From contig JAVCCE010000039.1 in assembly GCA_030765645.1 (NCBI GenBank), forward strand, positions 1 through 64,000: a stretch of DNA of 64,000 nt, given 5' to 3'. Origin of the DNA: Candidatus Hinthialibacter antarcticus (GTDB lineage Bacteria > Hinthialibacterota > Hinthialibacteria > Hinthialibacterales > Hinthialibacteraceae). Under the pieces are notes generated by a model. The model saw nothing but the letters and a program-made list of their open reading frames with translations. It did not search any database and had not been told where the DNA came from. A program made the translations under genes and the position numbers. Positions 67 through 15,626 of this stretch are shown one piece after another (the first letter of the stretch is position 1; each line of letters opens with the position of its first letter).

Positions 67-1302
67 CTAGTTCCTAAATTTTGAGACACTTACAACACTT
101 CTTCTTTCAAACGTTGGGACAGTAGTGTTTTTAACTGTTAAAACAGTCGGAATTTTAGTTAGACCATCTGCGACGTTATTAGATTGATCATGCCACTTAA
201 GAGGCATAAAAACTTGATTGCTGTTTTGCCATGGCACAAGAGACGAGAAACTATACATGTCTTCATGTGACAGCGCAGTACAAATAACATAAGGCAATTT
301 TGAATAAATTGCAAATGCGATAATTCCACCTGATTGATATTGAAAATAAAAATCACTATTTTGTAAAAGCAAAATATCTCCAAGAAAGGAATTTGAAAAA
401 TCTTTTGAGAAAGAACAGGCTAAATTGTTTTCTTTAGCAACTTTACGGAAATATTTACACCCATTAAAGTCTGAAATCATTAGCACTGAATGGTCTGGGA
501 AGTATTTATTTAATTCAACAACTGTTTCTATAAATTCAGAATCTTTGGTGTTTCTATCTTCTCGTCGTATTGTACAGTATCGACAATGAAATGTTATGTA
601 TGGTTTAGATGGACATGATTTCAGCAATTCAGGTTCTAAATTATTTTTGTTTATAAGAAATCTGTCTATATTTGTTGACTTACTTTTTTCAAAAAGATGG
701 TTCATTAAATTAAAGCATAATGGATAAATTGGCTCTTTTGCAAGTATCTTTTTCAAAAATACAAAATAATCATTATTTTCTTTACTAGTCATTTGAATGA
801 ACACATCATTCCACTTACAAAGTTTTACTCTTGATACTGATTCAGGCAAATAAGCTTTTGCAATATTCAACTGATCTTTTAAAAAAGTTTCTTTTTCATC
901 AGTATTTAAAGGACGTCCCTCGACATCTCGATATGAGGCAGAATCAACAATAAAGAAATTAACATAGACTTCATGAGACAAGAAATACCGTCCCAACATT
1001 ACAACTTTAAAATATTCACCATATGCGGGAGGAGAAGTTGAATTATCAAATACGACTGAAACCCTATCGATTGATTTATTTTCAAGAGCATTTAATATAG
1101 ATTTCGCTTCTTGCTTTTCTATCTTTCTCTTTCGATAGATATCATACTTGCGGCGAATATTTTTGATTGACAATGCTCTCACCAAAGACGCCAATTTGCG
1201 TATCAAAGGCAAGATCATCATGCGTCCAATACCAAGCGGCAAACGGTTTAAACCATTTTTAAAATTTTCACGAAATGACTGTAAAAAATTAGTATTAATC
1301 AC
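67..1302 (-). CDS. Glycosyltransferase-like protein of the surface-glycan operon
   Basis: The product has about 411 residues and I cannot place it firmly in a family. The C-terminal half reads like a GT-B-type glycosyltransferase: a strand motif PYITFHCR, then a Rossmann-like segment (HSVLMISD), then DILLLQNSDFYFQYQSGG, reminiscent of the donor-binding region of fucosyltransferase-like enzymes. The N-terminal 60 residues are basic and the protein has no signal peptide. I chose the GTG at 1302, not the upstream ATG at 1380, because GGAAGG lies five bases before it and it overlaps the dehydrogenase stop codon by 8 bp, as do other junctions here. The gene is visibly AT-rich compared with the genes upstream, which suggests separate acquisition. 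It is the last operon gene seen. It could instead be a non-enzymatic glycan protein. Confidence 0.6.
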   Translation of the reverse strand: MINTNFLQSFRENFKNGLNRLPLGIGRMMILPLIRKLASLVRALSIKNIRRKYDIYRKRKIEKQEAKSILNALENKSIDRVSVVFDNSTSPPAYGEYFKVVMLGRYFLSHEVYVNFFIVDSASYRDVEGRPLNTDEKETFLKDQLNIAKAYLPESVSRVKLCKWNDVFIQMTSKENNDYFVFLKKILAKEPIYPLCFNLMNHLFEKSKSTNIDRFLINKNNLEPELLKSCPSKPYITFHCRYCTIRREDRNTKDSEFIETVVELNKYFPDHSVLMISDFNGCKYFRKVAKENNLACSFSKDFSNSFLGDILLLQNSDFYFQYQSGGIIAFAIYSKLPYVICTALSHEDMYSFSSLVPWQNSNQVFMPLKWHDQSNNVADGLTKIPTVLTVKNTTVPTFERRSVVSVSKFRN

Positions 1303-2344
1303 ATTCACCTTCCAATTCCAGCATCGGGCGGCCAACGTCGCCCCGCTCCAGGTCAGCAAGCGCTTTATTGACTTCATCAAGTGGATAACGATTTGTAATT
1401 AATTTTTCCAACGGCAGGCACCCTTGGCGATAAAATTCAGCAAAACGCGGAATATCCTCATCCGAATTCGACTCGCCGCCCCAACTCCCTCGTATCTGTT
1501 TACCCGAAATCAAATCATGCGGTTCCAGACAAATTTTTTCTCCCGAGGGAGGATGGCTGGCAAATACGCACAATCCGCCGTTTTTTCGTACGCTATTAAA
1601 CGCACTCTCGATGGTTGAGGTTTGACCCGCCGCTTCAACCGCGTAATCAACTCCGTCAGCGCCGACAATCTCTCGAATACGGGCCGGGGCGTCTTCCTCG
1701 AGGGCGTTGATGGTATGAGTCGCGCCGAACGCTTTGGCCAGTTCCAATTTACTGGCTTGTGCGTCTACCGCAATCAATAGCGATACGCCGCTTAGTTTTG
1801 CAGCCATTACAGCGCTCAGACCGATTCCACCGACGCCCCAAACAACCATTCGGCTGTTTGGTTTAGGACGGACGGAATTCAATACGATACCAGCGCCCGT
1901 CAACACCGCGCAGCCAAACAAGGCGGCAATGTCTAATGGAATGTCATCTTCAATTTTCACGCAACGGTTTTCGGAAACGACCGTTGAATCACTAAACGTG
2001 GTAATCGCGCCTGCGTTGATCGCCTGTTCTCCGTTTCGATAAATGCTTCCTCCGCTGTCGATTCCGCTGCCTTTGATCCACGTCAAAACAACACGGTCGC
2101 CGGGTTGAACCTTTGTCACGCCTTCGCCGATTTCAACAACTACACCAGCGCCTTCATGCCCGAGTAAATGCGGGAGGTAACGGTCAGTTCCCCGTTTGCC
2201 TTGCGCCTCCATCAACTGGCTGTGGCAAACACCGCTATATGCGACATCGACTAGAAGTTGCCCCGGTTTGAGTGCAGGAATTTCGATCTCTTCAATGCGA
2301 AGCGGTTGATTGAGTTCGTATAAAACAGCAGCGCGGGTTTTCAT
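1295..2344 (-). CDS. Zinc-type medium-chain alcohol/polyol dehydrogenase
   Basis: This is an NAD(P)-dependent MDR dehydrogenase of 349 residues, probably oxidising an alcohol or reducing a carbonyl in sugar metabolism. Visible features are the catalytic zinc ligand in GVCHSQ (about Cys40), GHEGAG (about His63/Glu64) and the dinucleotide-binding motif WGVGGIGL near the middle. The usual four-cysteine structural-zinc lobe is absent: the region after GDRVVLTW carries no Cys cluster. The ATG at 2344 forms an ATGA overlap with the stop codon of the upstream nucleotidyltransferase, so it is preferred to the longer reading frame. The substrate cannot be read from the sequence. Its place in a heptose-containing operon suggests a sugar or sugar-derived alcohol. 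Confidence 0.85.
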   Translation of the reverse strand: MKTRAAVLYELNQPLRIEEIEIPALKPGQLLVDVAYSGVCHSQLMEAQGKRGTDRYLPHLLGHEGAGVVVEIGEGVTKVQPGDRVVLTWIKGSGIDSGGSIYRNGEQAINAGAITTFSDSTVVSENRCVKIEDDIPLDIAALFGCAVLTGAGIVLNSVRPKPNSRMVVWGVGGIGLSAVMAAKLSGVSLLIAVDAQASKLELAKAFGATHTINALEEDAPARIREIVGADGVDYAVEAAGQTSTIESAFNSVRKNGGLCVFASHPPSGEKICLEPHDLISGKQIRGSWGGESNSDEDIPRFAEFYRQGCLPLEKLITNRYPLDEVNKALADLERGDVGRPMLELEGECD

Positions 2345-3105
2345 GGTTGTGTTTGCTCCGGCATGTCTATCTGACAACGACCAGCAGCCACATCTGCCCG
2401 GGCTTGCTCTAAGCGTTCCGGCGAGTCAATGGCGCAGCGATACCCCGTGAGAGGAAAACCATACAAGCGCCCGGTATCGACTAATTTTGAAAAAACGTCC
2501 CGGGGAAAATCACAGGGCTGGTTCACTGGGACATGAGAAAGAACTTCACGGTCACAAAGGCAAATGGCGGAATTCACCCAATGCCATTCAATATGTTTGT
2601 ATGCGTCTTCGCCTGGTCGTTCTAGAAAGCCCGTAATGCGATTGGAATCATCCAGGCTGACAATGCTGTTAGAGCGCTTTCGTTGATGAAGAAGCAATGT
2701 CGCCAAAGCGCCGCGTTCACGGTGAAACGCAAGCATCGCAGTCAGGTTTTGGTCAGTCAAAATATCTCCGTATTGAACCAGGAACGAATCGCTCTCGCCC
2801 AAGAAGGTTTCCATTTTTTTTGCGCCGCCCGCCGTACCCAGCAATTCGTCTTCTTGTGAGTAAACAATTTGGACGCCGCAACGCTCGCCATCGCCAAAAT
2901 AGTTTTGAATCTGCTCAGGCATAAAATGCAGGTTGACTGCGATTTCGCGAAACCCATGCCGGGCGAGATGCGTCAGAAGATATTCAAGCAATGGCCGGTT
3001 TTGGATATCCAACATTGGCTTGGGGGTTTCATGCGTCAGCCCGCCCAAGCGTGTTCCATAGCCAGCGCATAACACTATCGTGCGGATGTTGCAGCCAGTA
3101 TCCAT
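2341..3105 (-). CDS. Sugar-1-phosphate nucleotidyltransferase (HddC/RfbA-like)
   Basis: The 254-residue protein belongs to the NTP_transferase family, which joins a sugar 1-phosphate to an NTP to give an NDP-sugar and pyrophosphate. The N-terminal signature LCAGYGTRLGGLT followed by KPM is the nucleotide-binding loop, and QYGDILTD carries the metal-binding aspartate. It overlaps the GmhB gene by 31 bp and follows it directly. In GDP-heptose pathways the enzyme after GmhB is HddC, a member of this same family, so activation of heptose 1-phosphate is the likely job. Whether GTP, CTP or another NTP is used cannot be decided by eye. Mannose- or glucose-1-phosphate are alternative substrates. Confidence 0.82.
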   Translation of the reverse strand: MDTGCNIRTIVLCAGYGTRLGGLTHETPKPMLDIQNRPLLEYLLTHLARHGFREIAVNLHFMPEQIQNYFGDGERCGVQIVYSQEDELLGTAGGAKKMETFLGESDSFLVQYGDILTDQNLTAMLAFHRERGALATLLLHQRKRSNSIVSLDDSNRITGFLERPGEDAYKHIEWHWVNSAICLCDREVLSHVPVNQPCDFPRDVFSKLVDTGRLYGFPLTGYRCAIDSPERLEQARADVAAGRCQIDMPEQTQP

Positions 3106-3671
3106 TCGGCGGCATCTCCTAAATCTTTGCAGATAAAATCAGGTTGAATTGTCTCGTCAAGAATATCGCTGGTTTGAATCGTTGGCGCGACGTGTGCGCC
3201 GGTCTGAACCAAGACGGTCTTACATCCAGCCGCAACGCCAGCATGGATGTCAGTAATTCGATCTCCAACCATGTAACTTGTCGAAAGATCAATTTGATAT
3301 TCTTTCGCTGCATGTAAGATTAAACCCGGACGGGGTTTTCGGCATTGGCAATCAATCCGGTACGCGGGCAAGGTCGCCTGGGGATGATGGGGGCAGGCGT
3401 AAAAGCCGTCAATCGGCGGAGCGCCCTGTTGCATCAATTGATCTTCAATTTGTTTTTGTAATGAATACATTTCGTCTTCTGAAAGTAAGCCGCGCGCAAC
3501 CACGGTTTGGTTGCTAGCGACCAGTAGGCGGAATCCGTTATTGTGCAAATTAATTAATGCGTCAACAACGCTTGGCAGAACTCGGATTTTCTGGGGTTGC
3601 GTTAAGAGATGAACGTCTTCAATTAAGACGCCGTCACGATCTAAGAACACAGCCGAATTCAAATTACTCAC
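3075..3671 (-). CDS. gmhB: D-glycero-D-manno-heptose 1,7-bisphosphate 7-phosphatase
   Basis: This is a HAD-superfamily phosphatase of 198 residues, close to the usual GmhB length of about 190. The nucleophile motif FLDRDGV gives Asp11 and Asp13. The lysine motif lies in CRKPRPG and the last acidic motif in VGDRITD. The zinc loop typical of GmhB is present as Cys93-x-His95 and Cys108-x-Cys110. The reaction removes the 7-phosphate from heptose 1,7-bisphosphate before nucleotide activation, which fits the kinase at 13566 and the nucleotidyltransferase just downstream. The start is a GTG. A histidinol-phosphatase role is the main alternative within this subfamily, but the neighbours argue for heptose. 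Confidence 0.88.
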   Translation of the reverse strand: MSNLNSAVFLDRDGVLIEDVHLLTQPQKIRVLPSVVDALINLHNNGFRLLVASNQTVVARGLLSEDEMYSLQKQIEDQLMQQGAPPIDGFYACPHHPQATLPAYRIDCQCRKPRPGLILHAAKEYQIDLSTSYMVGDRITDIHAGVAAGCKTVLVQTGAHVAPTIQTSDILDETIQPDFICKDLGDAAEWILAATSAR

Positions 3672-3702: not shown

Positions 3703-4371
3703 TCATGCAGATTCCGCAATAAACCAATAATAGTCGCCCTTGTAGCCCACTTCATCGAAGAGTTTTTTCCAGTCATCCACGTGCATGTACGTTAAAGCGG
3801 TCAGGTTCCAATTCAACATGGACTGGTGTTCTGCTTCATTGCGCCAGGCGTCGTTCATGACAAACGCGTCTTTTCGCGTTACGCGCTGAATTTCACGAAA
3901 CGCCTGCTTACAATCAATCGGCGGCAGGTTGTGAATAGTGTTTATACAAATCACTAAATCAAACGAGTCGTCTTCAAATGGAATGTTGTTGGCGTTTGCG
4001 ACTTGGATAAACGGCTTCATCTCTTCATGGGCATGATCGTAAGCATATTTTGAAACATCAATGCCGCGAATATACGCCTTGGGCATTAGCAGGCTGAGGT
4101 CGTACATCATGAAACCTTTGGCGCAGCCTACATCCAAGATGCGAGCGTCTTCGGGCAGTTGGTAATGGTCGCGAAATCGCTTGACGGTATCCGTCCAGAA
4201 GCGTGCGTTGTAGCCATATCCGCCATAGCCGGTGAGGCGGTCGCCGTCGAAATATTCCACGTCGAATTTACGCGCAACGGCGCGGTGATCTTCGGTGATC
4301 AATTTGGCACGATCATCAATTGGCCGCTTGGATTGTGGATATTGGTCGAGCAGGTTGATTTCTTGTCCCAT
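3703..4371 (-). CDS. Class I SAM-dependent methyltransferase
   Basis: The 222-residue product has the seven-strand Rossmann methyltransferase core: motif I is ILDVGCAKGF, followed by IRGIDVSKYA with the acidic residue that binds the SAM ribose, and DLVICINTIHNL as motif IV. It is cytosolic and most likely O- or N-methylates a sugar, a nucleotide-sugar or a terminal residue of the exported glycan. The ATG at 4371 is preferred over the ATG at 4404 because a purine-rich GAGAGTGAG precedes it. The upstream PLP gene ends 17 bp before it. Wzt-type exporters with a C-terminal domain often recognise a methylated or otherwise capped glycan end, so a capping role is possible, but this is inference. Confidence 0.82.
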   Translation of the reverse strand: MGQEINLLDQYPQSKRPIDDRAKLITEDHRAVARKFDVEYFDGDRLTGYGGYGYNARFWTDTVKRFRDHYQLPEDARILDVGCAKGFMMYDLSLLMPKAYIRGIDVSKYAYDHAHEEMKPFIQVANANNIPFEDDSFDLVICINTIHNLPPIDCKQAFREIQRVTRKDAFVMNDAWRNEAEHQSMLNWNLTALTYMHVDDWKKLFDEVGYKGDYYWFIAESA

Positions 4372-4388
4372 GATCTCACTCTCTATCT

Positions 4389-5468
4389 TTAAAATTCTGT
4401 CCATTGACGAATAACATCAACGACGCATTGAATATTTTCAAGTGGTTGGGAAGGCCCACATGGCAATATAACGCCTTCATCAGCGAATGCGGATGCATTG
4501 GAAAACGCACTGGGATTATTTAAGTATGGCGCACGATTTAACGGCAAATGAAAAGGTATTGCATCAATATCATTTTGCGACAACATCTCAAGAAACGACT
4601 CACGCTCTTTTACTCGAACTTCAGCACAAAGCGAAATTGCCCCTTGATCGATGCGAACAGGAATAAAGCGGATATGTTCTGAATCAACGATACCATCAGA
4701 GTAAATTTTGTATACAGCATTTAAGTGCTTGACTTTTTCTTCAACTCGATCCAGCTGAGCTAATCCCATTCCAGCAAGTAAATCGCTAATTTTGAAATTA
4801 AAACTCAAAACCTCGTAGCGTTCTTCTCCTTGGCGGGGAACTCCTTGGTTTTGAATTAATTTTAATTGCTGGTACATTTCTTCACTGTGAGTAACAACGA
4901 CGCCTCCATATCCAATAGAGACAAGAGAAATCATTCCTAAAGAAAAACAGCCAGCGTCACCTATCGTTCCAAGACATTGGTGCTCAAATTTGGAGAACAT
5001 GGCCTTGCAAGTATCTTCAATAACGACGATCCCAGATTTGGCGGCAATTTTTTTAATTCTCGCCATATCACAAGCCCGACCATTCAAATGGACGGGAATA
5101 ATTGCTCGTGTAGACGCTGTGATTTGTTTTTCGATTTCATAGGGATTCACCAAAGGTGAATCAGGAAAACAATCCGCCAGTACGACCTTAGCGCCTATAG
5201 CCGCCGCTGCGTTTCCTGTTGCGATCCAAGTCAATGCAGGAACAATCACTTCGTCGCCTGATCTAACTCCAGCAGCAATCAACGCCATTGTGAGAGCGGC
5301 TGTTCCGCTTGGCGTTAACACAGCGTAAGGAATTTGCAACATTTCTGCAAACCGACGCTCCCATTCTGCTGAAACAGGGCCCATGCTTAAGTGTTTTCCG
5401 TCAAAAGCACTTAAAAGCCCTTGCTTTTCCGCTTCTCCGATTTCTGTGTACCACCATGGAATTTTCAT
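4389..5468 (-). CDS. DegT/DnrJ/EryC1/StrS-family PLP protein lacking the usual Schiff-base lysine
   Basis: The 359-residue protein has the fold and length of a sugar aminotransferase: SGTAALTMAL near residue 54, GDEVIVPALTW near 71 and IPVHLNG near 124. The cofactor-binding acid pair is Glu151-Asp152. At the position where family members carry the catalytic lysine, the sequence reads GCFSLGMISLVSIGYGG, with Ser181 where Lys is expected; the DNA codons ATT TCT confirm it. Gln of the usual EDxxQ is also changed, to Lys155. In ColD and CDP-hexulose 3-dehydrase the lysine is replaced by His and the enzyme becomes a dehydratase, so this protein may catalyse deoxygenation, or may have lost activity. 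It follows an SDR gene in the glycan operon. Confidence 0.85.
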   Translation of the reverse strand: MKIPWWYTEIGEAEKQGLLSAFDGKHLSMGPVSAEWERRFAEMLQIPYAVLTPSGTAALTMALIAAGVRSGDEVIVPALTWIATGNAAAAIGAKVVLADCFPDSPLVNPYEIEKQITASTRAIIPVHLNGRACDMARIKKIAAKSGIVVIEDTCKAMFSKFEHQCLGTIGDAGCFSLGMISLVSIGYGGVVVTHSEEMYQQLKLIQNQGVPRQGEERYEVLSFNFKISDLLAGMGLAQLDRVEEKVKHLNAVYKIYSDGIVDSEHIRFIPVRIDQGAISLCAEVRVKERESFLEMLSQNDIDAIPFHLPLNRAPYLNNPSAFSNASAFADEGVILPCGPSQPLENIQCVVDVIRQWTEF

Positions 5469-5503: not shown

Positions 5504-6310
5504 TCAGGATTTTTTCTGATTTTGTGCACATATGTATGATTGGCGCGCTGCATGAAAATGATCGACCCCCAACAATCCACCATCAACAATAATTGATTGC
5601 CCTGTTAGGTAAGGACAACCCTCAGAGCACAAATACGACGCCAGATCAGCGATTTCTTCTGGACGCGCCGCTCGCTTCCCGGGGACGATCGATTCGACAA
5701 TGTCGTGATTCATTGGCTTACTAGTTAGCGATGCGCCATTATCGTCTATATCCACTAATCCAGGACAAATCGCATTAACCCGAATTCCTTTTGCGGCAAA
5801 ATGCTGAGCCAGATAACGAGTCAAATGGTCCAAGCCTGCTTTTGCTGCATGATAAGCCGCTGGTTGATGAGATATGGTAAACGCATTTGTGGATCCAATA
5901 TTCAGAATTACTCCGCCCCCATTTTTTTCCATGACAGGCATCACGTATCGGCAGGCCAGTGCAGGTGCCTTTAACAACACATCCAATGCTAGATCCCATT
6001 CTGAAAAAGATTCTGCATAGTCATACAGGCTTAATTTAGGACGTGCATTATTTATAAGGAAATCCACACGCCTGTATTGTTGAACTGCAATATTAACCAT
6101 TTTCTGAATCTCAGATTCTTTTCGAAGATCAACTGGAACAAATTCTGAATTTTTGATTGAAGCCGCTGCTGCTTCGCCTCTTTCTTGATTCATATCAGCA
6201 AGAATTACTGTGGCTCCCAATTCGGCGAAACGACGTGAAATTTCAAGACCGATACCTTGTGCAGCGCCGGTTATAAGTGCGACTCGATTTGTAAAACAAT
6301 TTGGAGTCAT
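5504..6310 (-). CDS. Short-chain dehydrogenase/reductase
   Basis: This classical SDR of 268 residues shows the cofactor motif TGAAQGIG at the N terminus, LINNARP in place of the common NNAG, and a complete active site: the serine in NIGSTNA lies 13 residues before the tyrosine of YHAAK. PGLVDI follows the active site as in many classical SDRs. It is a soluble NAD(P)-dependent oxidoreductase whose substrate is probably a sugar or polyol in the glycan pathway. The aldo/keto reductase upstream ends 4 bp before its start, so the two genes are likely translated together and may act on successive carbonyl/hydroxyl steps. The exact substrate is unknown. Confidence 0.87.
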   Translation of the reverse strand: MTPNCFTNRVALITGAAQGIGLEISRRFAELGATVILADMNQERGEAAAASIKNSEFVPVDLRKESEIQKMVNIAVQQYRRVDFLINNARPKLSLYDYAESFSEWDLALDVLLKAPALACRYVMPVMEKNGGGVILNIGSTNAFTISHQPAAYHAAKAGLDHLTRYLAQHFAAKGIRVNAICPGLVDIDDNGASLTSKPMNHDIVESIVPGKRAARPEEIADLASYLCSEGCPYLTGQSIIVDGGLLGVDHFHAARQSYICAQNQKKS

Positions 6311-6314
6311 AGTA

Positions 6315-7319
6315 TTAGGTTTCTAAATATTCTTTGGGCAATGAGTGGATATAATCCCACAATTTCAGTGATCGAATTGATTCATCAATCTGTTGAACTT
6401 CGTCTTTTTCAAGCACCCAAGAGGCGCCGTTTACGCATTCGGTTAACTGAGCATTATTCCGAACCCCAACCAATGCTGTACAAACACCTAGTCGGGATAG
6501 GAGCCAGGCAATCGCCAATTCAACAAGCGTCTTACCATAACAGGTTGCTATTTCGCTTAAAGATTCAACCAGGCTATAAGTAGACTCAGTAAGCCAGCGG
6601 CTCACCCGCTGACTGGTTGCAGCGCGGCTTTCTGGAGGCGCTGCTTGTCCTCTTATGTATTTCCCGGTAAGCAGTCCTCTCGCTAATGCGCGGTTGCAGA
6701 TAATGCCAGTGTTTTCTTGCACGCATAACGGCCGAGCTTCAACATCAACCCGTCGTTCAATCATGTTAAAATGCGCTTGATATGAAACCATTCGGTTATA
6801 TTTGCATGCATCTGCGATTCGGTTAATCGCATTGAGCTGACTTGGAGAAAAATTTGAGCAGCCATACGCTAAAATTTTTCCTTCTTGCTTGAGCGCATCA
6901 AGAGCCCCGAGCGTCTCATCTAACGGCGTGGATGGATTGAATGCATGTAACTGAAAAAGGTCGATTCGGTCAGTACGCAGTGCGCGCAGGCTAGACTCAA
7001 CATGAGATCGCAACGATTTTTCCGTCAGTGAATCTAATTTCACTGCAAACGAACCATCGGCGCGTTTTGTCGGGATCAACCCCGCCTTTGTGCTTAAAAT
7101 TACTTCATCACGCCGACCTTTCAATGCACTACCTACAATTGCTTCAGATTGCCCATTTCCGTACAAAGGCGCTGTATCGATAAACGTAATCCCCTGATCC
7201 AATGCATTATTTAAAAGAAGAGTGGATTCTTTTTCGTCAAGAAAAACACCAAAGTGAAGCGCACCCAAACCTAATATGGATGAATGTAATGAACTCGAAC
7301 CTAATTTTCGTTTTAACAT
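6315..7319 (-). CDS. Aldo/keto reductase
   Basis: The 334-residue protein is a TIM-barrel NAD(P)H-dependent aldo/keto reductase. FIDTAPLYGNGQSE carries the catalytic Asp and Tyr, STKAG carries the catalytic Lys, and IDLFQLHAF carries the catalytic His. YGCSNFSPSQL is the conserved segment after the barrel strand. The C-terminal part AIAWLLSR and ALVGVRN belongs to the cofactor-binding end. It lies between the dioxygenase-like gene (17 bp upstream) and an SDR gene (4 bp downstream). Homologues in nucleotide-sugar clusters reduce keto-sugars, which is the inferred role here. A general aldehyde-reductase function cannot be excluded. Confidence 0.9.
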   Translation of the reverse strand: MLKRKLGSSSLHSSILGLGALHFGVFLDEKESTLLLNNALDQGITFIDTAPLYGNGQSEAIVGSALKGRRDEVILSTKAGLIPTKRADGSFAVKLDSLTEKSLRSHVESSLRALRTDRIDLFQLHAFNPSTPLDETLGALDALKQEGKILAYGCSNFSPSQLNAINRIADACKYNRMVSYQAHFNMIERRVDVEARPLCVQENTGIICNRALARGLLTGKYIRGQAAPPESRAATSQRVSRWLTESTYSLVESLSEIATCYGKTLVELAIAWLLSRLGVCTALVGVRNNAQLTECVNGASWVLEKDEVQQIDESIRSLKLWDYIHSLPKEYLET

Positions 7320-7335
7320 TGAATCAAAAATGTCG

Positions 7336-8058
7336 CTAAATTGGCTTTATTCTAAATTCAAGACTCAGACGAGTTGTTTCTCCAACCTCAATATTTTCGC
7401 TATGCAGTAAACGCGGGTGAAACATGATTGCATCTCCGGAAGACAGGGAGGGACGCATTGGATCTAGTTGTGTGACATCACCAGCGAAATAGAGTTCATC
7501 TTTACGGAATTTTCCATTTTCCGGCAAATAAGATTCGTACTCTCTTTTATGCGAACCAGGGACAAGCGCAATGGTTTCCTGTGGAGTAAAACCAATGATG
7601 GGGATCCAAAATGAGAAAACGTCTTTGGCGGCCCCCCATTCTTTTCGACTAAAGGGATATCCATCGCCAAAACCGGGTCGGATAAAACGAAACGCCAACC
7701 AACCAAGCCCTTCGTCCCATCGCTCGTAATTTGAACAACCCAATTGATTAAGCAACTCAATCATTGACGGGTTCATCAGAATGTTTGCAATTTCTTCAGG
7801 AGGCGTAGTGTGTCTATTGTTCGCCTTAAATAGACTATTGTGCTCTACGCCAAGTTCACGAAACCATAAGTGATATTCGCCTAATGGATGAGTATCCTGT
7901 TTCCCATTAACCCACTTGTCGAGTAAGCGATACAACCATTGGTGGGCAAATTCCGTAAGTTTGCAAATATCGGATGATGAAAAAGCACAAAAAATAGCGA
8001 ATCCATTTTCTTCATAAGAGTGCGCAGCAGACTCGATTACTTCTAAGTTTTGGTTCAT
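7336..8058 (-). CDS. Phytanoyl-CoA dioxygenase (PhyH)-like Fe(II)/2-oxoglutarate oxygenase
   Basis: The 240-residue product resembles the PhyH branch of double-stranded beta-helix oxygenases. The C-terminal motif MFHPRLLHSEN supplies the second iron-binding His, and the Arg of ETTRLSLEFR is placed to bind 2-oxoglutarate. PGSHKREY is the characteristic loop before it. The first His-x-Asp pair is less certain: KDVFSFWIP sits where it is expected and contains no obvious His-x-Asp, so activity must be tested. Members of this family hydroxylate or oxidise small molecules, including sugars and lipids in surface-glycan or natural-product clusters. Its neighbours are a TPP enzyme and an aldo/keto reductase. 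Confidence 0.7.
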   Translation of the reverse strand: MNQNLEVIESAAHSYEENGFAIFCAFSSSDICKLTEFAHQWLYRLLDKWVNGKQDTHPLGEYHLWFRELGVEHNSLFKANNRHTTPPEEIANILMNPSMIELLNQLGCSNYERWDEGLGWLAFRFIRPGFGDGYPFSRKEWGAAKDVFSFWIPIIGFTPQETIALVPGSHKREYESYLPENGKFRKDELYFAGDVTQLDPMRPSLSSGDAIMFHPRLLHSENIEVGETTRLSLEFRIKPI

Positions 8059-8085: not shown

Positions 8086-9021
8086 TTAGGCCTTAAAATT
8101 AAATTCTCGCTGAATTTGGTTATTGATTCCTTCAGGCGAAAACCCCAATCGTTCGCAATGATCATGATAGGTTCCGTATTCACGTTGAAATTCATCGGGG
8201 ATACAGACGGAACTAAATTGAATTGGCCCGACTGTATGCAATAAACGTGCGATTTCCTCTCCAACGCCGCCAGACTGTGCGTGCTCTTCAATTACGATCA
8301 CTCGGCGCGTTTTTGATGCGCTGGACAAGATTAAATTATCATCTAGAGGCCGAATTGTATGGAGATAGATCACTTCTGCATCTATACTGTGAGCAGTCAA
8401 CTGTTCACGCGCTCCCAAAGCGGCTTTGAGATGCGGCCCCGTCGCAACGATTGTGACGTCTTCACCCTCGATTACTTTCACGCCTTTTCCGAACTCAATA
8501 TCTTTGCTATCTAAGACTTGTTCATGCTGATAGGCGGGAAGACGGTATAAAGTCAGCTGTCCATTGGCATAAACCTGGCGGAATAGAATATCGAACTCGA
8601 CTGGAGACGCGGGATAAACAATCTGTGAACCTGGTAAGGTTTTGAGTAGCGCAAAATCAGAATAACAATGATGCGTACACCCCAAGTTTGAATAGTCGAA
8701 AGCAGAACCAACCGTAATCAGGTTTCCACCCAGTTGGTGGTACCCAAAATCCAATTTAATTTGTTCAAATGAGCGCTCAATCAGAAACGGCGCAATCGTA
8801 TGTGCAACGGGCACAAAACCCATTTTTGCAAGCCCAGCCGCCATACTGATAATTGTCGGTTCACAAATTCCGACATTGTAATAACGACCAGGGCAAGCTT
8901 TTGCAAACGGCTGCAAAATAAAGTGGCTGATATCACCAACCAGAACCACGAGATTGTTGTCTTCTTGCCCTAATTCTAACATTGTCTCTGCGAATTGATC
9001 CCGCATGGATTTAGCACTCAA
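8086..9021 (-). CDS. Transketolase C-terminal half (pyrimidine-binding and C-terminal domains)
   Basis: This is the second half of a split transketolase, about 311 residues. It contains the pyrimidine-binding region with the GICEPTIISMAAGLA segment, whose Glu is the expected TPP-activating residue, and the transketolase C-terminal domain (VTIVATGPHL, VIVIEEHAQSGG). I chose the TTG at 9021 because a strong GGAGG lies seven bases upstream and the codon overlaps the stop of the N-terminal half. The first in-frame ATG is 15 bases further in, at 9006. The two halves overlap by 4 bp and should form one enzyme that moves a two-carbon ketol unit between sugar phosphates, or a related transfer on an activated sugar. 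Confidence 0.88.
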   Translation of the reverse strand: MSAKSMRDQFAETMLELGQEDNNLVVLVGDISHFILQPFAKACPGRYYNVGICEPTIISMAAGLAKMGFVPVAHTIAPFLIERSFEQIKLDFGYHQLGGNLITVGSAFDYSNLGCTHHCYSDFALLKTLPGSQIVYPASPVEFDILFRQVYANGQLTLYRLPAYQHEQVLDSKDIEFGKGVKVIEGEDVTIVATGPHLKAALGAREQLTAHSIDAEVIYLHTIRPLDDNLILSSASKTRRVIVIEEHAQSGGVGEEIARLLHTVGPIQFSSVCIPDEFQREYGTYHDHCERLGFSPEGINNQIQREFNFKA

Positions 9022-9782
9022 CGCAATACCTCCATGATTTTCGTATACTCTTCTGCAGACGGAATTCGATGGTGCCACATCCCGTGCCCCTCCAACATTG
9101 GAACGCCTTTCCCTTTGACTGTTTTAGCCACAATCATATTCGGCACGTCTTCAGATTTGAAATCAAGAGCGCTCGCGAGTTCTGTATTTGAGTGGCCGTC
9201 TACCACTTGGGTATGCCAACCAAAAGCCTTCCATTTAGCAGGAAGGTCGTCAACAGGCATCAATTGTGCGGCGGAACCATTCCAGTCTACAACTGCACAC
9301 AAGTTGCCAAGTTGAAAGTTTCGAGCCACGCTGGCCGCCTCCCACACCGTGCCTTCATGACATTCGCCGTCACCCATCAAGACGAAAACCTTATTATTCA
9401 TCCCTCGAAGGCGGAGCCCCAATGCAATACCAAGAGCGAAGGACAATCCATGACCTAAGGAGCCAGTCGACGCCTCAACACCTGGTACTTTCGTACAATC
9501 AGGATGCTCACCCAAACGACCGCCTTTTCGGCAAAACATCATTAAATCTTCGTCTGTTAAAAAACCGAATTTATGCAGTACTGCGTACATCGCAACGCAG
9601 CCGTGCCCCTTACTTAAGATAAAGTAATCTCGTTCAGGGGAATCTGGATTCTGAGGATCAAAATGAAGGTATCGCTCATATAATAAATTAATAATGTCGA
9701 CAATAGAAAAGGCGCTCGGGATATGACCATCTTTTCCCCGATAGACCATCTCAATGATTGTTTTGCGTAGATCGTTGTTCAT
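9018..9782 (-). CDS. Transketolase N-terminal half (TPP-binding domain)
   Basis: The 254-residue protein is the diphosphate-binding half of a split transketolase. SKGHGC near residue 57, GSLGHGLSFALG near 108 and the TPP/metal motif GDGECHEGTVWEAA at about 137 are all present, with VVDWN closing the motif. Normal transketolases are single chains of about 660 residues; here the two halves are separate overlapping genes, as in DXS-like and many glycan-cluster versions. The gene lies between an FkbM methyltransferase gene and the C-terminal half. Because heptose genes are in the same operon, production or use of sedoheptulose-type sugars, or chain extension of a sugar, are plausible roles. The true donor and acceptor are unknown. 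Confidence 0.9.
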   Translation of the reverse strand: MNNDLRKTIIEMVYRGKDGHIPSAFSIVDIINLLYERYLHFDPQNPDSPERDYFILSKGHGCVAMYAVLHKFGFLTDEDLMMFCRKGGRLGEHPDCTKVPGVEASTGSLGHGLSFALGIALGLRLRGMNNKVFVLMGDGECHEGTVWEAASVARNFQLGNLCAVVDWNGSAAQLMPVDDLPAKWKAFGWHTQVVDGHSNTELASALDFKSEDVPNMIVAKTVKGKGVPMLEGHGMWHHRIPSAEEYTKIMEVLR

Positions 9783-9795
9783 AAGCTTCTTTCAA

Positions 9796-10671
9796 TTAGC
9801 GAGATTGAGGAAACGGTTCATGATACTGGCCGCTTATATATAAAGATCCGTCGTGATAACTGGTCGGCATTTGGTCTAAATTCTCGACGCGCTGCCAACC
9901 AATCTTTTGGGCGTACATTCCAACGCCTTCTGTCGTAAAATGATTAAACACAGATTCTGCATTTTTCACGTTTTCTATTTCGACCATTGCGTCTGTATTT
10001 TCCCACTGATTCTTATTGGTAGATAGTAATATTTCTTTTTCGTGACCTTCTGCATCGAGTTTGATAAAGTCAGCCCATTCCAAAATCGGCCCGATGCCTT
10101 CTAACGAAACGGGAAAGCGTTCTAATTCCCCATACGGGTTTTCTTTTGAACCAGCGATATGGCTGCCTGTCGTATTGCCTACAACTCGAATAAATTCGGT
10201 TTCACCTGGTTTGCTGGAAACAGCCGCTTGGGAAACGTTTACAGATTCGCATTGATTGAGTTGTAGATTACGCCGTAAAATATCAAAATGTTTTGGGTCC
10301 GGTTCATACGAACGAACATCAAATCCGCACTTTGATAATAGGACACTGTGCAATCCGATGTTGGCTCCAATGTCTGCAACTTTCTTATAACGGTTTCGAG
10401 CGCTCCAGTAAAAACTGAAAATAATCAACTCATCCAGATCGAAAAGGTTGGTCGAATTGATTGCTCCCATTTGAAAAAAAGGAAAAACCAGATCACCGAA
10501 AGGAGAAAAATCTACTGGAATCGCCTCTTCATTACGAAATAAAGTTCCCACCTCAAGTTTAACAAGCTGTTTCAACGCATTGTAAATAGGTTGTTGAGGT
10601 GAATGAAATGCAGAAATTGCGGGTAAGCCTTCAAATAAGTTGTTGAATACTGAATCCATTTTCTCTCTCAT
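9796..10671 (-). CDS. FkbM-family methyltransferase
   Basis: The 291-residue protein matches the FkbM type of SAM-dependent O-methyltransferase. Motif I is VADIGANIGLHS, SYEPDP has the ribose-binding Glu, and DFIKLDAEGHE is the diagnostic FkbM motif. The first 80 residues are a divergent extension without a signal peptide. Family members methylate sugar hydroxyls in polyketides and surface polysaccharides, so it may modify the exported glycan. Its ATG at 10671 forms an ATGA overlap with the SDR stop. A second ATG at 10659 sits directly after a GAGAG run and could be used instead. Confidence 0.87.
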   Translation of the reverse strand: MREKMDSVFNNLFEGLPAISAFHSPQQPIYNALKQLVKLEVGTLFRNEEAIPVDFSPFGDLVFPFFQMGAINSTNLFDLDELIIFSFYWSARNRYKKVADIGANIGLHSVLLSKCGFDVRSYEPDPKHFDILRRNLQLNQCESVNVSQAAVSSKPGETEFIRVVGNTTGSHIAGSKENPYGELERFPVSLEGIGPILEWADFIKLDAEGHEKEILLSTNKNQWENTDAMVEIENVKNAESVFNHFTTEGVGMYAQKIGWQRVENLDQMPTSYHDGSLYISGQYHEPFPQSR

Positions 10672-11495
10672 GATTGATTTTTGAGATATGCGTCGTTTCC
10701 ATGACGCCGTAATTTGTACATATTAAAATTATTGCGCAACATTGATTCAAGTTCGGGATCGCCCCATGCATCAAATACAACACTGAAATTACGCCCGCTA
10801 ACGACATCACGCGGTGAATTGATAATCCAATCACAGCAATTTAAAACATCGCTCATTGGCGTACATTCATCGCTATTTAGTTTTGAACGGGTTTTATCAT
10901 AATTGGCGCCGACTTTTTCGACTCCAGCCTCTAGCGTCGATTGATGAATTTTTGTTTTAACCCATCCTGGACCAACTATAGCAAAACGTGCGTCTTGGAT
11001 TTCCGCATCCAAGAGTTCACACATTTTGATTAATGCAATTTTTGAAATCGTATACGCAGAATAGTTCACCGTCGCGTTATTGGCGCCGCCGCCCGCAAAA
11101 AACAATACACAGGGTGGAGTATTCGCACCACTGGAACGATATGGCAACAGTGCATGCGCGATACGAAGTTGCGCCGTAAAGTTCACTTGGATTGACGATT
11201 CCCATTCATCAAAATCACAGTCCAAAAATGATCCAACAGGATCTTGCAATCCAGTCGCAAGAACAAGAACATCCCAATTTGGGCACGTCTCTTTCAACGA
11301 ATGGATTGAAGTCTCAATCGACTCTTTATCACTTAGATCACAATGAACCAACGACATCCCTTTGGATTCAAGTGCAGAAATTTCAGGAGAACTTGTGCGA
11401 TAAGTCCCTGCAACCGTCCAGTCACAATCCAACCAACGCTGGCACATCGCTAAACCGATATCGCTAGAAGCGGAAATGACAATAGCTTTTTTCAT
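10668..11495 (-). CDS. SDR-family protein with altered cofactor and active-site motifs
   Basis: The 275-residue product folds like a short-chain dehydrogenase: LVLATGL stands at the NNAG position, and Tyr148-x-x-x-Lys152 is intact in AYTISK. Two features are unusual. The glycine-rich loop reads ISASSDIG instead of TGxxxGIG, and the residue 13 places before the tyrosine is Gly135 in FFAGGG where classical SDRs have Ser. It may therefore be a slow or specialised reductase, or have a non-catalytic role. It overlaps the FkbM gene by 4 bp and lies 15 bp after the E1-beta gene, so it may act directly on the product of that TPP enzyme. Confidence 0.78.
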   Translation of the reverse strand: MKKAIVISASSDIGLAMCQRWLDCDWTVAGTYRTSSPEISALESKGMSLVHCDLSDKESIETSIHSLKETCPNWDVLVLATGLQDPVGSFLDCDFDEWESSIQVNFTAQLRIAHALLPYRSSGANTPPCVLFFAGGGANNATVNYSAYTISKIALIKMCELLDAEIQDARFAIVGPGWVKTKIHQSTLEAGVEKVGANYDKTRSKLNSDECTPMSDVLNCCDWIINSPRDVVSGRNFSVVFDAWGDPELESMLRNNFNMYKLRRHGNDAYLKNQS

Positions 11496-11510: not shown

Positions 11511-12569
11511 TTAAAACGGGCCTTTGAAATTGGCGTCGGGAACATCGAGTCGTTGACCTGATTTGACATCAAGTAAATCAGTGACTGGTTCAAGCCCCAA
11601 GGTGCGCTTCGCTGCGATATGAATATGGCCCGCACGCGGATAATACGCCGCTGACAACGGCGGGCTGGTGGGGCATGGGCAGTCCGGCAATGCAACGCGT
11701 TGCGGCGCCGCTTTCAGCGATTCAAATTCTTGCTCGACCACTGCGGCGACAATTTCCGCGCTCACGCCAAATGCCTGTCCGCCTGTATCCGCTACAACGA
11801 GGCGACCCGTTTTACGAACGCTTTCAAAAATACACTCTTTGTCCCACGGCAGGATCGTGCGTAAATCAATCACTTCGGCGGAAACGCCTTCTTCCGCTAA
11901 GCGATCAGCGGCGCGTAATGCTTCCAGCGTCATATACGAAGCGCTTACAAGAGTGACATCGCTTCCCGCTCGCATTATACGGGCCTTGCCAATCGGCGTC
12001 GTATAGTGTCCTTCCGGCGCCTCATCGCTCAGATTATACAGCCATCGGTGTTCGATCATGACAACCGGGTTATCATCCTCAACCGCAGCGATTAACAACC
12101 CTTTGGCGTCGTATGGCGTTGTTGACATGACGACTTTTAACCCAGGAATGTGGGCGAACCAGGCCTGAAGGCTTTGAGAGTGCTGAGGCCCTTGCCCCCA
12201 TCCCCGCCCGGCGATCATTCGGATTACGAGCGGGGCCTTCATCACGCCGCCAAACATGTAGTGCCATTTGGCGGCTTGGTTCACAATTTGCTCAATGGAG
12301 ACCAGGGCAAAATCAACTCGCTGGTGCGTTAAGATCGGGCGCATTCCGCTGATCGCCGCTCCCAGTGCAACGCCTGTAAGAGCGTTTTCGGAGAGCGGGA
12401 TATCAAATACGCGTTTCGATCCATATTTTTTTTGCAGATCAAGCGTAGAGCCGAAAATCCCTTTGGGATCGGGCGCGCCTAAACCCATCAGAAAGACATT
12501 GGGGTCAGTTTCAAGACAGATGTCTTGCGCTTCGCGAAGAGCCTGTGCGTAAGTGATAGTTCGACTCAT
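11511..12569 (-). CDS. Pyruvate dehydrogenase E1-beta-like TPP enzyme subunit
   Basis: The 352-residue protein aligns with E1-beta / AcoB-type subunits. ITYAQALREA opens the pyrimidine-binding domain, IPLSENALTGVALG contains the Glu that activates TPP, and VVMIEHRWLY and GRLVVADTGG belong to the C-terminal domain. It overlaps the E1-alpha gene by 4 bp, so both chains are made together. No E2 or lipoamide dehydrogenase gene is nearby, which argues against a housekeeping 2-oxoacid dehydrogenase complex. E1-alpha/beta-like pairs are known in avilamycin biosynthesis, where they add a two-carbon branch to a sugar. A similar acyl transfer to a keto-sugar is the inferred role here. Confidence 0.86.
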   Translation of the reverse strand: MSRTITYAQALREAQDICLETDPNVFLMGLGAPDPKGIFGSTLDLQKKYGSKRVFDIPLSENALTGVALGAAISGMRPILTHQRVDFALVSIEQIVNQAAKWHYMFGGVMKAPLVIRMIAGRGWGQGPQHSQSLQAWFAHIPGLKVVMSTTPYDAKGLLIAAVEDDNPVVMIEHRWLYNLSDEAPEGHYTTPIGKARIMRAGSDVTLVSASYMTLEALRAADRLAEEGVSAEVIDLRTILPWDKECIFESVRKTGRLVVADTGGQAFGVSAEIVAAVVEQEFESLKAAPQRVALPDCPCPTSPPLSAAYYPRAGHIHIAAKRTLGLEPVTDLLDVKSGQRLDVPDANFKGPF

Positions 12570-13531
12570 GCGTACACCTTGGCGAATAAATCATCGGCGG
12601 GTGGAAACGCGCTGTCTTTTGCGAAAGCAAATGCATCGTCGATCTCAGCGCCTATGATTTCATCAAATTCATTTAATTCTGATTGCTGGACGGCTCCATC
12701 GGCGAGTAAGCGCTGCGCACAAGCCGCAACAGGGTCTTTCTTGCGCCAAGCCTGATATTCTTCTTCTGTGCGGTAGCCAATATCGTTGTCGTAGTTGGGG
12801 CCGCAATGTTCGCGCCATCGGTAGGTAGAAAATTCAAGAAAGACAGGCCCTTCGCCAGTGCGCGCTTGTTGGGCGGCTTCTTGCGTAACACCAAAGACTT
12901 CTTCAACAGTATTGCCGTCCCCTTGCCGGGTCGCGGCGCCAAGTCCCTCTGCCAATTGGCTGAGAGAACGACCTTCAGGCTGCCGGACATTTAACGGTGA
13001 ATAAACAGAATAGAGGTTGTTTTCGCAAACAAATAATATTGGTAGCCGCTTGAGCACGGCAAAATTGAGGCTCTCGTGAAAAACGCCCGCTTCAGCGGCG
13101 CCGTCGCCAAAGAAAATTGCGACGACTTGGTCTTCTTCGCGCATCTGGATAGAAAGAGCAACGCCGACTGCGATAGGGATGGTGCTGCCAACAATAGGCG
13201 TCGCGCCAACAAATCCCGCATCCAGATCGGTCAAGTGCATTGACCCGCCCATGCCTTTTGAACAACCGGTCTCTTTGCCATAGATTTCAGCCAACATGCG
13301 TTTCAGGTCGCCGCCTTTGGCGAGATAGTGAGCATGGCTGCGATGACCGGACAATACGCGGTCCCTCTTTTGCAAGGCTGAACACACGCCGACGGCCGCC
13401 GCTTCTTGCCCAATAGAAAGATGAACGGGGCAACGCATCTCCTGCTCAGCATACTGGTCAGCGATTCGCTCTTCGATCAAACGGATGCGGCGTATGTCAG
13501 TATATAGTTTTTTTCTGATGTCTTGATCCAT
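12566..13531 (-). CDS. Pyruvate dehydrogenase E1-alpha-like TPP enzyme subunit
   Basis: This is the TPP-binding subunit partner of the E1-beta protein. HLSIGQEA and SGHRSHAHYLAKGG are typical of E1-alpha, and the TPP motif GDGAAEAGVFHESLN with the downstream VCENN is at about residues 142-175. I start the protein at the ATG at 13531, about 321 residues, because homology begins directly after it and GGATGA lies upstream; the open frame continues to 13633 inside the kinase gene. It is 34 bp downstream of the kinase stop. With E1-beta it should decarboxylate a 2-oxo acid and pass on the acyl group. The acceptor is unknown. Confidence 0.88.
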   Translation of the reverse strand: MDQDIRKKLYTDIRRIRLIEERIADQYAEQEMRCPVHLSIGQEAAAVGVCSALQKRDRVLSGHRSHAHYLAKGGDLKRMLAEIYGKETGCSKGMGGSMHLTDLDAGFVGATPIVGSTIPIAVGVALSIQMREEDQVVAIFFGDGAAEAGVFHESLNFAVLKRLPILFVCENNLYSVYSPLNVRQPEGRSLSQLAEGLGAATRQGDGNTVEEVFGVTQEAAQQARTGEGPVFLEFSTYRWREHCGPNYDNDIGYRTEEEYQAWRKKDPVAACAQRLLADGAVQQSELNEFDEIIGAEIDDAFAFAKDSAFPPADDLFAKVYA

Positions 13532-13565
13532 ATTCAATTTCATCCAGACAATATATAAAATGCCG

Positions 13566-14612
13566 TTATTGTAAAAATTCTTTGATGGCTTGATAGAGGC
13601 TTTCCCGGTCAATCGGGTCGCGGTTTCCGACAATCGTGACCGCCTGGGCGCCTACCATATTACTGATGAAGCCAACAATGTCAGAGGGCAGATTCCGCTG
13701 AACGCATAACGAACTAACCGCCAAGACGGAATCACCAGCGCCTACGCGGTCCGTTACTTTCATCGCTAGCGCAGGACATTGGGTAAAGCCGTCATCCGGT
13801 CGGAAGAGTAAAGTGCCGAATTTACCTTGCGTAACCAACACGGATTTGCAATCCATTCGTTCAGACACATTCTTGACTAAATCATCTAACTGTCCGGTTC
13901 GGTCTCGTTGATCGAGCCTCACCTCACCTTCATGCACACATACGTAATCTGCCCGAGGATAGCGCGACAACGTATGAAATCCATGATTGGCGGCATTGAT
14001 CTGAGTATTCACCGACAAAAAGCGAGCATGTTGACAAATGAAATCAATCACGCGCGGCGTCAAGAGACCATGACCATAATCCGCCGCAATCACTACATCG
14101 CATTCAGCCAAGCGTTCACGAAGAACAGCGCATAAGGCTTCTTCTTCGTTCTCCGCCATCGGCGCATCATTGATTTCATAGACTTCAAGCAGTTTGGTAA
14201 CAAGATATTTATCGACAAAGCGGCGTTTAACGATGGTGGGAGAATTGGATTTTTGAATAAAAAATGGCTTAACCGTTTCGTGAAGGCTCGACCGAATAAA
14301 GTCTTCGCGAGAGTTTTCTTCTCCCAAGTAGGTAACCAATTCGACTTGATCGCAAAAACTCGATAAATGATTGGCCACCATCGCTGCGCCGCCAGCATGC
14401 GTCTCTTCAGACAAATGACGCAAAACTAATATGGGCTCTTTCGCCGACTTGCCTAAAATATCACCGTATACATATTCATCGAGAATGGTTTCCCCAATGA
14501 CTACGACCTTGAGTGAACGCAAATCGTCCAGGCAGCGAATAATCTCGTTAACTGTATGACAAGATTTAAATTCTCTGATATATTCGTCTACGTTTTTGTT
14601 GTAAGCAGTCAT
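13566..14612 (-). CDS. hldA: D-glycero-beta-D-manno-heptose 7-phosphate kinase (HldE N-domain type)
   Basis: The 348-residue protein is a PfkB-family kinase resembling the first domain of HldE/RfaE. VVVIGETILDEYVYGD is the N-terminal signature, HAGGAAMVANHL is the glycine-rich substrate region, and DRVGAGDS near the C terminus holds the catalytic Asp. The cytidylyltransferase-like second domain of HldE is missing, so it only phosphorylates C1 to give heptose 1,7-bisphosphate, the substrate of GmhB at 3075. GmhA (sedoheptulose-7-phosphate isomerase) is not in the window and must come from elsewhere or be replaced. A different PfkB sugar kinase role is possible but less likely next to GmhB. Confidence 0.8.
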   Translation of the reverse strand: MTAYNKNVDEYIREFKSCHTVNEIIRCLDDLRSLKVVVIGETILDEYVYGDILGKSAKEPILVLRHLSEETHAGGAAMVANHLSSFCDQVELVTYLGEENSREDFIRSSLHETVKPFFIQKSNSPTIVKRRFVDKYLVTKLLEVYEINDAPMAENEEEALCAVLRERLAECDVVIAADYGHGLLTPRVIDFICQHARFLSVNTQINAANHGFHTLSRYPRADYVCVHEGEVRLDQRDRTGQLDDLVKNVSERMDCKSVLVTQGKFGTLLFRPDDGFTQCPALAMKVTDRVGAGDSVLAVSSLCVQRNLPSDIVGFISNMVGAQAVTIVGNRDPIDRESLYQAIKEFLQ

Positions 14613-14636: not shown

Positions 14637-15626
14637 TTATTTTTTGTGGATGTAATCAAATGGCTGTGATTTTAATTCATTGAAATGTTTGTCAACCCAG
14701 GCGATTGTCTCTTCGACGCCGCAGTCTAAATCGATTTCATCTTTCCAACCAAGTACATCTCTTGCTTTCTGGCTATCTAAGCGATAGGCAGCGTCTTTGC
14801 CTAAACGCTCTCCGGCAATTTCTACGCATTCAGAAAATTCAACACCCATTTTTTTACAGATTAGTTCAACCAAATCCCGAATCGAAATCAAACGCGGCGT
14901 GGACAAATGATATACTTCGCCTGATTTTCCCTTTTGGGCAATGCGCCAAGTTCCATCAGATACGTCTCGTATATGAATGAATGATCGTATTGACGTCCCA
15001 CCGCCATGCAACTGAAGTTTTCGGCCTAGCCGGATAAACAGTATCGTTCGCGGAATGATTCGGTACAGTTGCTGCCCCGGGCCATACACATTCGCGGCGC
15101 GCGTAAAGACGACGGGGAAATTATAGGCAGAGAAAAAACTCATCAGGCTCATATCGCAGGCCGCGCGCGAAACCGCATAAGGCGTGCTGGGATTATACGA
15201 CGCGTCTTCCAACACATCACCTTGACAGCTGCCATATACTTCTGGAGTCGAAACGTGGACGTAGCGCTTCAAAAAAACACACGTACGCAATTTGTCGTGC
15301 AAATTCACGTTCGCGACAACATTGGTTTGAAACCAGTCAGCAGGTTGCTGCCAACTTTGCGCGACCATGCTTTGCGCAGCAAAATTGACAAAGTAATCAG
15401 GACGAAATTCATGAACTACATCCATGATGGCGTCTAAATCACTATTTAAATCCAGTTGGTGAAATGTATAACGGGAGCGGTCGCCCCATGCGTACGGCAA
15501 CAATGCAGGAATTGGTTCTTCAGAGCGGCTAATGCCAACCGTCTCGATCCCCTGATTGAGCAAGTATCCAACAAAACTGGCGCCGGAAAATGAATTGCTG
15601 CCTAAAACAAGAACTTTATCACTCAT
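14637..15626 (-). CDS. NAD-dependent epimerase/dehydratase (GDP-mannose 4,6-dehydratase-like)
   Basis: The extended SDR of 329 residues begins with VLGSNSFSGASFVGYLL in the place of the Rossmann loop, and HVSTPEVYG carries the catalytic Thr and acid typical of 4,6-dehydratases. The central motif is Tyr150-Ala-Val-Ser-Arg154: the normal YxxxK lysine is Arg. RAANVYGPGQQ and SFIHIRDV are nucleotide-sugar binding motifs. Dehydratases of this type convert GDP-mannose, dTDP-glucose or GDP-heptose into 4-keto-6-deoxy sugars, the kind of acceptor needed for later reduction, transamination or acyl transfer by the operon's other enzymes. The substrate is not determined. Confidence 0.83.
   Translation of the reverse strand: MSDKVLVLGSNSFSGASFVGYLLNQGIETVGISRSEEPIPALLPYAWGDRSRYTFHQLDLNSDLDAIMDVVHEFRPDYFVNFAAQSMVAQSWQQPADWFQTNVVANVNLHDKLRTCVFLKRYVHVSTPEVYGSCQGDVLEDASYNPSTPYAVSRAACDMSLMSFFSAYNFPVVFTRAANVYGPGQQLYRIIPRTILFIRLGRKLQLHGGGTSIRSFIHIRDVSDGTWRIAQKGKSGEVYHLSTPRLISIRDLVELICKKMGVEFSECVEIAGERLGKDAAYRLDSQKARDVLGWKDEIDLDCGVEETIAWVDKHFNELKSQPFDYIHKK

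Follow-up and report, generated by a model that had tools for sequence, protein, structure and literature searches.

A DegT-family protein with serine at the Schiff-base lysine position and a lysine at position 155 that may take over its role

The window analyzed here is a stretch of 64 000 nucleotides from Candidatus Hinthialibacter antarcticus (contig JAVCCE010000039.1, positions 1 to 64 000). Close to its start lies a compact array of minus-strand genes, separated by gaps of -68 to +35 bases (Table 1). One of them codes for a DegT/DnrJ/EryC1/StrS protein without the Schiff-base lysine, which we refer to as DegT*. Among the other products, SDR, SDR2, AKR, transketolase and the E1-alpha subunit have intact catalytic motifs.

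Table 1. Genes of the DegT* array and key DegT* codons (window coordinates)
Feature	Coordinates	Strand	Remarks
Zn-type alcohol dehydrogenase	1295..2377	-	orthologue in both other genomes
Sugar-1-phosphate nucleotidyltransferase, HddC/MurU-like	2341..3105	-	
GmhB-like HAD phosphatase	3075..3671	-	
Class I SAM methyltransferase	3703..4404	-	16-base overlap with DegT*; orthologue in both other genomes
DegT*, Lys-less DegT/DnrJ/EryC1/StrS protein, K155/S181 type	4389..5468	-	359 aa, ATG start
Ser181, codon TCT	4926..4928	-	PLP Schiff-base lysine position
Lys155, codon AAG	5004..5006	-	position contacting PLP O3' in solved relatives
Asp152, codon GAT	5013..5015	-	pyridine-N1 ligand, intact
Classical SDR, YHAAK motif	5504..6310	-	immediately upstream of DegT* in 3/3 genomes
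Aldo/keto reductase (AKR)	6315..7319	-	
Divergent PhyH-like protein	7336..8058	-	cassette marker
Transketolase C-terminal half	8086..9078	-	
Transketolase N-terminal half	9018..9782	-	ThDP motif GDG...N
FkbM-type methyltransferase	9796..10671	-	
Second SDR (SDR2), YTISK	10668..11495	-	
Pyruvate-dehydrogenase E1-beta-like subunit	11511..12569	-	ThDP
Pyruvate-dehydrogenase E1-alpha-like subunit	12566..13633	-	ThDP
HldE/RfaE-domain-I-like heptose kinase (PfkB)	13566..14612	-	
4,6-dehydratase-like extended SDR	14637..15626	-	
Epimerase-like extended SDR	15630..16586	-	

DegT* matches Pfam family PF01041 (DegT_DnrJ_EryC1) over residues 10-353 with an E-value of 1.9e-77. Its score of 261 bits, compared with the gathering cut-off of 19.8, assigns it to the superfamily over the full length. 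According to the original prediction, Ser181 occupies the place of the PLP-binding lysine and Lys155 that of the Gln in the EDxxQ motif. Alignments bear out both assignments. The Schiff-base lysine of 7b0m and of GDP-perosamine synthase aligns with Ser181, and a phage ColD-like protein aligned with ColD puts ColD His188 into the same column. Lys155 stands at the EDxxQ position, three residues past the N1-binding Asp152; Gln, Glu or His is found there in other members. The genome codes for about ten full-length DegT proteins; a second one in the window (45083-46420, minus strand) is of the ordinary Q155/K181 type.

Two genuine homologues of DegT* were found in 85k species genomes. A single-protein scan of these genomes gave no match, the peptide patterns being too specific. 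When the local motif was searched as a degenerate DNA pattern, eight stretches matched, two of which encode true homologues and six of which are not DegT. One homologue comes from an Oligoflexia MAG (52% identity to DegT*; EDSCKALGS and CFSLGMVSLVTIGYGG) and the other from a Parachlamydiales MAG (47% identity; EDACKAMFS and CFSLGMISLVSVGYGG). Lys155 and Ser181 are invariant in all three proteins. No further members were found in 14 genomes of the window's own phylum, 46 genomes of the phylum of the Oligoflexia MAG, 234 genomes of that of the Parachlamydiales MAG or 386 broadly sampled genomes, and no Ser-type member was found among viral contigs. The K155/S181 group is known from three sequences, each in a draft assembly, and the draft state of all three genomes would speak for a sequencing, assembly or frame artefact. 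However, the ORFs are intact, at least two base changes are needed to turn Lys into Ser, and the residues are identical in three assemblies at 47-52% identity. Since two independent homologues carry the same pair, we rejected sequencing error, which the original prediction had named as a possible flaw, and consider the chance of any such artefact practically negligible. Misalignment by one position, which might hide a lysine, was also rejected: FSLGMxSL is common to the three sequences, and residues 156-200 include no conserved Lys.

The Schiff-base lysine of the FSxxxxK motif, characteristic of aminotransferases, is thus replaced by Ser181 in every member of the trio. Other aminotransferase ligands of the cofactor are kept in DegT*, namely D152 (N1), T56 and S176 (phosphate) and N224 (from the partner subunit). 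D152, S176 and N224 are retained in all three proteins, and Ser replaces T56 in the Parachlamydiales copy. The prediction that the PLP site is otherwise intact therefore holds for these four residues but not for the usual Glu of G-E-G-G, which is Tyr187 throughout the trio. The only invariant cysteines are C133, C154 and C174, and the four-cysteine [2Fe-2S] motif is absent.

To put these residues into context, we aligned 111 DegT proteins from the window's phylum, viral contigs, and plasmid and phage records. The sample is non-random, with many sequences from viral contigs and from the window's phylum, and it includes both Lys-type and His-type active sites. In this sample Lys181 occurs in 88 proteins and is combined at position 155 with Gln (42), Glu (26), His (18), Leu (1) or Ile (1). 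His181 is present in 20 proteins, all of which have an acidic residue at 155 (19 Glu and one Asp). The remaining three are the K155/S181 proteins; both residues always occur together and nowhere else in the sample. Lys155 is found in none of the Lys181 enzymes, which answers the concern that active aminotransferases might have an alternative lysine at this site. Ser is thus distinct from the known His (ColD/E1/SpnQ) variant. The trio is further distinguished by N129, G178, M179, Y187, E216, K245 and H307, which are absent or rare elsewhere. Several of these changes are probably near the active site, judging by their motif positions. K25, like K245, is invariant in the trio, and lysine at these two positions is rare (3%) or absent in the other 108 proteins.

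The structure of DegT* was modeled. The AlphaFold model based on a 54-sequence alignment is confident and shows an intact fold (pLDDT 96.2, pTM 0.94), the motif region 155-188 included; a model built from a three-sequence alignment (pLDDT 49) was discarded. A Foldseek search against PDB returned 7b0m and GDP-perosamine synthase at the top, with TM-scores of up to 0.94, and ColD at rank 30. The value of 0.94 for GDP-perosamine synthase places DegT* among fold-type-I aminotransferases. In Pcryo_0638, the Gln159 side chain is 2.9 A from a PLP oxygen (PMC8040287). In Spr1654, His173 lies within hydrogen-bonding distance of O3', and the Schiff base is formed by Lys199 (PMC5936713). By constant offsets of 4 and 18, residue 155 of DegT* corresponds to Gln159 and His173, and residue 181 to Lys185 and Lys199, respectively; residue 152 maps by the same offsets. 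Because the equivalent residues in both proteins contact a PLP oxygen, Lys155 is expected to adjoin O3' and, hence, to be near C4' of the cofactor.

Phylogenetic analysis (maximum-likelihood tree of 81 proteins) groups the Ser-type sequences into a single clade with 100/100 support. Its sister is the Lys-bearing protein L058 (97/91), followed by a Lys-bearing group (99/99), and the His clade is separate (100/99). Judging from this topology, the Ser clade is a descendant of a Lys-bearing lineage. When the Ser and His types were forced together in a 34-row set, the log-likelihood dropped by 21.4 units, a borderline result (AU test, p=0.055). Independent loss of the lysine in the Ser clade and in the His dehydratases is favoured by the tree but not proved. 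Membership of DegT* in the ColD clade is not supported by the tree, again with the reservation that the AU test is borderline. L058, the DegT protein of genome G344, is the nearest Lys-bearing relative, with 32-33% identity to the Ser clade. Unlike DegT*, it has the ordinary E155/K181 pair, and it neighbors a nucleotide-sugar dehydrogenase and a glycosyltransferase rather than the DegT* cassette.

His-type genes of the sample also occur in other settings. Several viral contigs (L074, L075, L085, L114, L091, L125 and L068) have two neighboring DegT genes, one of the Lys type and one of the His type, for example at 2474-3568 and 3571-4710 of L085. They look as if an aminotransferase and a dehydratase served one pathway. 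A His-type DegT (L029, 1447-2652) directly follows a GDP-mannose 4,6-dehydratase-like gene in another member of the window's class, so that a conventional ColD-like enzyme is present in the window's phylum as well.

Whether the Ser-type members share operon context had been put forward as a check, and they do. About 15 orthologous genes are common to the window, Oligoflexia and Parachlamydiales genomes. They include those for DegT*, two SDRs, AKR, the PhyH-like protein, the split transketolase, the PDH-E1-like pair, alcohol dehydrogenase, methyltransferases, the heptose-type kinase, and the 4,6-dehydratase-like and epimerase-like SDRs. Beside DegT*, both other genomes encode SDR, AKR, the PhyH-like protein, FkbM methyltransferase and SDR2; their genes for the split transketolase, E1-like alpha and beta subunits, alcohol dehydrogenase and the second methyltransferase lie in the vicinity or on a different contig. 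All three genomes preserve the run PhyH-AKR-SDR-DegT*, and the remaining gene order is reshuffled. SIS-domain (GmhA-like) proteins are encoded near both other DegT* copies. No N-acyltransferase is found among the genes shared by the three genomes. The gene set is very rare: among the 386 sampled genomes the PhyH-like marker had no match beyond the window's own genome, and the cassette did not turn up elsewhere when plasmids were searched with the PhyH-like protein, SDR2, TKN and the dehydratase. The simplest reading of this distribution is that the cassette may be a horizontally moving surface-sugar pathway.

Several neighbors of DegT* have peculiarities of their own. According to the alignment to 2rdn, the HxD iron motif of the PhyH-like protein keeps its first His in the Oligoflexia copy, but this residue is Phe130 in the window and Pro in the Parachlamydiales one; D132, H219 and R230 are invariant. 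Two of the three copies may thus not bind iron. Two ThDP enzymes, the split transketolase and the PDH-E1-like pair, occur in one sugar cluster in all three genomes, and no E2/E3 partners of the latter were seen among the array genes read. The Parachlamydiales epimerase-like gene (L057, 8586-9541) consists of two ORFs (8586-9218 and 9221-9541), representing either a frameshift or real fission.

Nearly all B6 enzymes have the Schiff-base lysine, the known exception within the DegT family being the His-type 3-dehydratases. We propose that DegT* would be an active, cofactor-binding fold-type-I B6 enzyme of a conserved surface-sugar pathway, acting on a ketosugar intermediate that is probably nucleotide-linked and heptose-derived. 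Its catalytic lysine would have been relocated, with Ser left at 181 and a new Lys gained at 155, beside O3' and near C4'. From there Lys155 could cover at least part of the work of the lost lysine by forming the PLP Schiff base from the O3' side, by shuttling the C4' proton, or both. The proposal follows from the covariation of K155 and S181 together with the placement of residue 155 at O3' by homology. The original idea that Lys155 may take over is strengthened by the exclusive pairing in 111 sequences and by the mapping to a PLP-oxygen contact, while the role itself stays inferred. Because the double swap is conserved in three unrelated lineages within one shared pathway, DegT* is probably a working enzyme whose chemistry is altered, and not a mistake. 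We would put roughly even chances on DegT* being a catalytically active PLP enzyme that acts on a ketosugar and relies on Lys155 for the role of the lost lysine. The narrower claim, that Lys155 itself makes the internal aldimine or serves as the obligate C4' base, is more tentative, possible rather than probable. Lys155 might merely hold O3' or a substrate phosphate, and the other trio-specific changes (N129, G178, M179, Y187, E216 and H307) could reflect different chemistry altogether.

Instead of using a relocated lysine, DegT* may be a PMP-dependent, ColD/E1-like ketosugar 3-dehydratase that works without an internal aldimine. Lys155 or Tyr187 would then provide the C4' base, and no Schiff base would ever form on Lys155. 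Lysine loss, with His in its place, is a known mark of 3-dehydratases (PMC8987622). The E-D-x-C at residues 151-154 resembles E-D-N-C of ColD, and the pathway combines a 4,6-dehydratase-like SDR and a ThDP E1 pair with the lack of an N-acyltransferase in the shared genes. However, DegT* has neither His181 nor Glu/Asp155 and lies outside the His clade, subject to the borderline AU test, and this explanation, which we regard as unlikely, leaves the appearance of lysine at 155 unaccounted for. The missing lysine, together with the frequent occurrence in other families of homologues that have lost catalysis but kept a binding role, might suggest a pseudoenzyme. Such a protein would bind the cofactor or a nucleotide sugar and assist a neighbor such as SDR or transketolase in a structural or regulatory capacity. 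This seems quite improbable, given that the PLP-site residues are invariant at about 50% overall identity, that there is a compensating Lys155 and no sign of decay, and that the cassette provides no second DegT as an active partner. It is very improbable that DegT* is an ordinary aminotransferase in which K25 or K245, possibly from the other subunit, fills the canonical spot. Although both lysines are peculiar to the trio, they are far away in sequence, and their segments form the nucleotide-binding and dimer-interface region in relatives, whereas K155 is predicted to sit at the cofactor. The N-terminal stretch of Spr1654 into which K25 falls contacts the nucleotide base of the neighboring subunit (PMC5936713).

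As for the reaction of DegT*, we lean slightly towards C3 dehydration rather than transamination because of the missing N-acyltransferase, the presence of the PDH-E1-like ThDP pair and the precedent of C-4-branched bacterial sugars such as yersiniose A. In these, 3-deoxygenation goes together with a ThDP-added two-carbon branch, and dehydration would suit a deoxy, branched product.

Among known systems, GDP-perosamine synthase and 7b0m are closest to DegT* in fold (TM 0.91-0.94), share its ligands of PLP phosphate and N1, and give the best sequence match. Yet in these PF01041 aminotransferases position 181 holds the Schiff-base Lys and position 155 Glu, Gln or His, where DegT* has Ser and Lys. 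ColD, E1 (DdhC, AscC) and SpnQ have the PF01041 fold and, like DegT*, no Schiff-base lysine; their His acts as the C4' base on the PMP-ketosugar Schiff base (PMC8987622). They differ from DegT* in His at 181, Glu/Asp at 155 and a separate clade, and E1 and SpnQ also in the four [2Fe-2S] cysteines. If the relocation to Lys155 is true, it would define a third catalytic DegT class beside Lys aminotransferases and His dehydratases, and the Ser/Lys swap would offer a clean case for asking whether the B6 lysine must stay in place or can shift its position. Outside B6 enzymes, a migrated catalytic lysine is known in the WNK1 and POMK kinases, in which the canonical lysine is lost and a lysine is supplied from another position (PMC10211241). 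Their fold and chemistry are unrelated to those of DegT*, and the likeness is an analogy only. At the pathway level, DegT* provides a handle on an uncharacterised set of about 15 genes from three distant lineages, the product of which may be a new branched or deoxy heptose. Deoxysugar genes accompany a ThDP enzyme, as in the DegT* cassette, in the pathways for yersiniose A and, with AviB1/AviB2, for eurekanate and paulomycose. According to current proposals, E1-like pairs of the AviB1/AviB2 type attach a two-carbon branch at C-4 of a 4-ketosugar in avilamycin-type sugars; YerE does so in yersiniose (PMC4753412, PMC10338323). Compared with these pathways, the DegT* cassette differs in having heptose-type genes and in combining a split transketolase with an E1-like pair.
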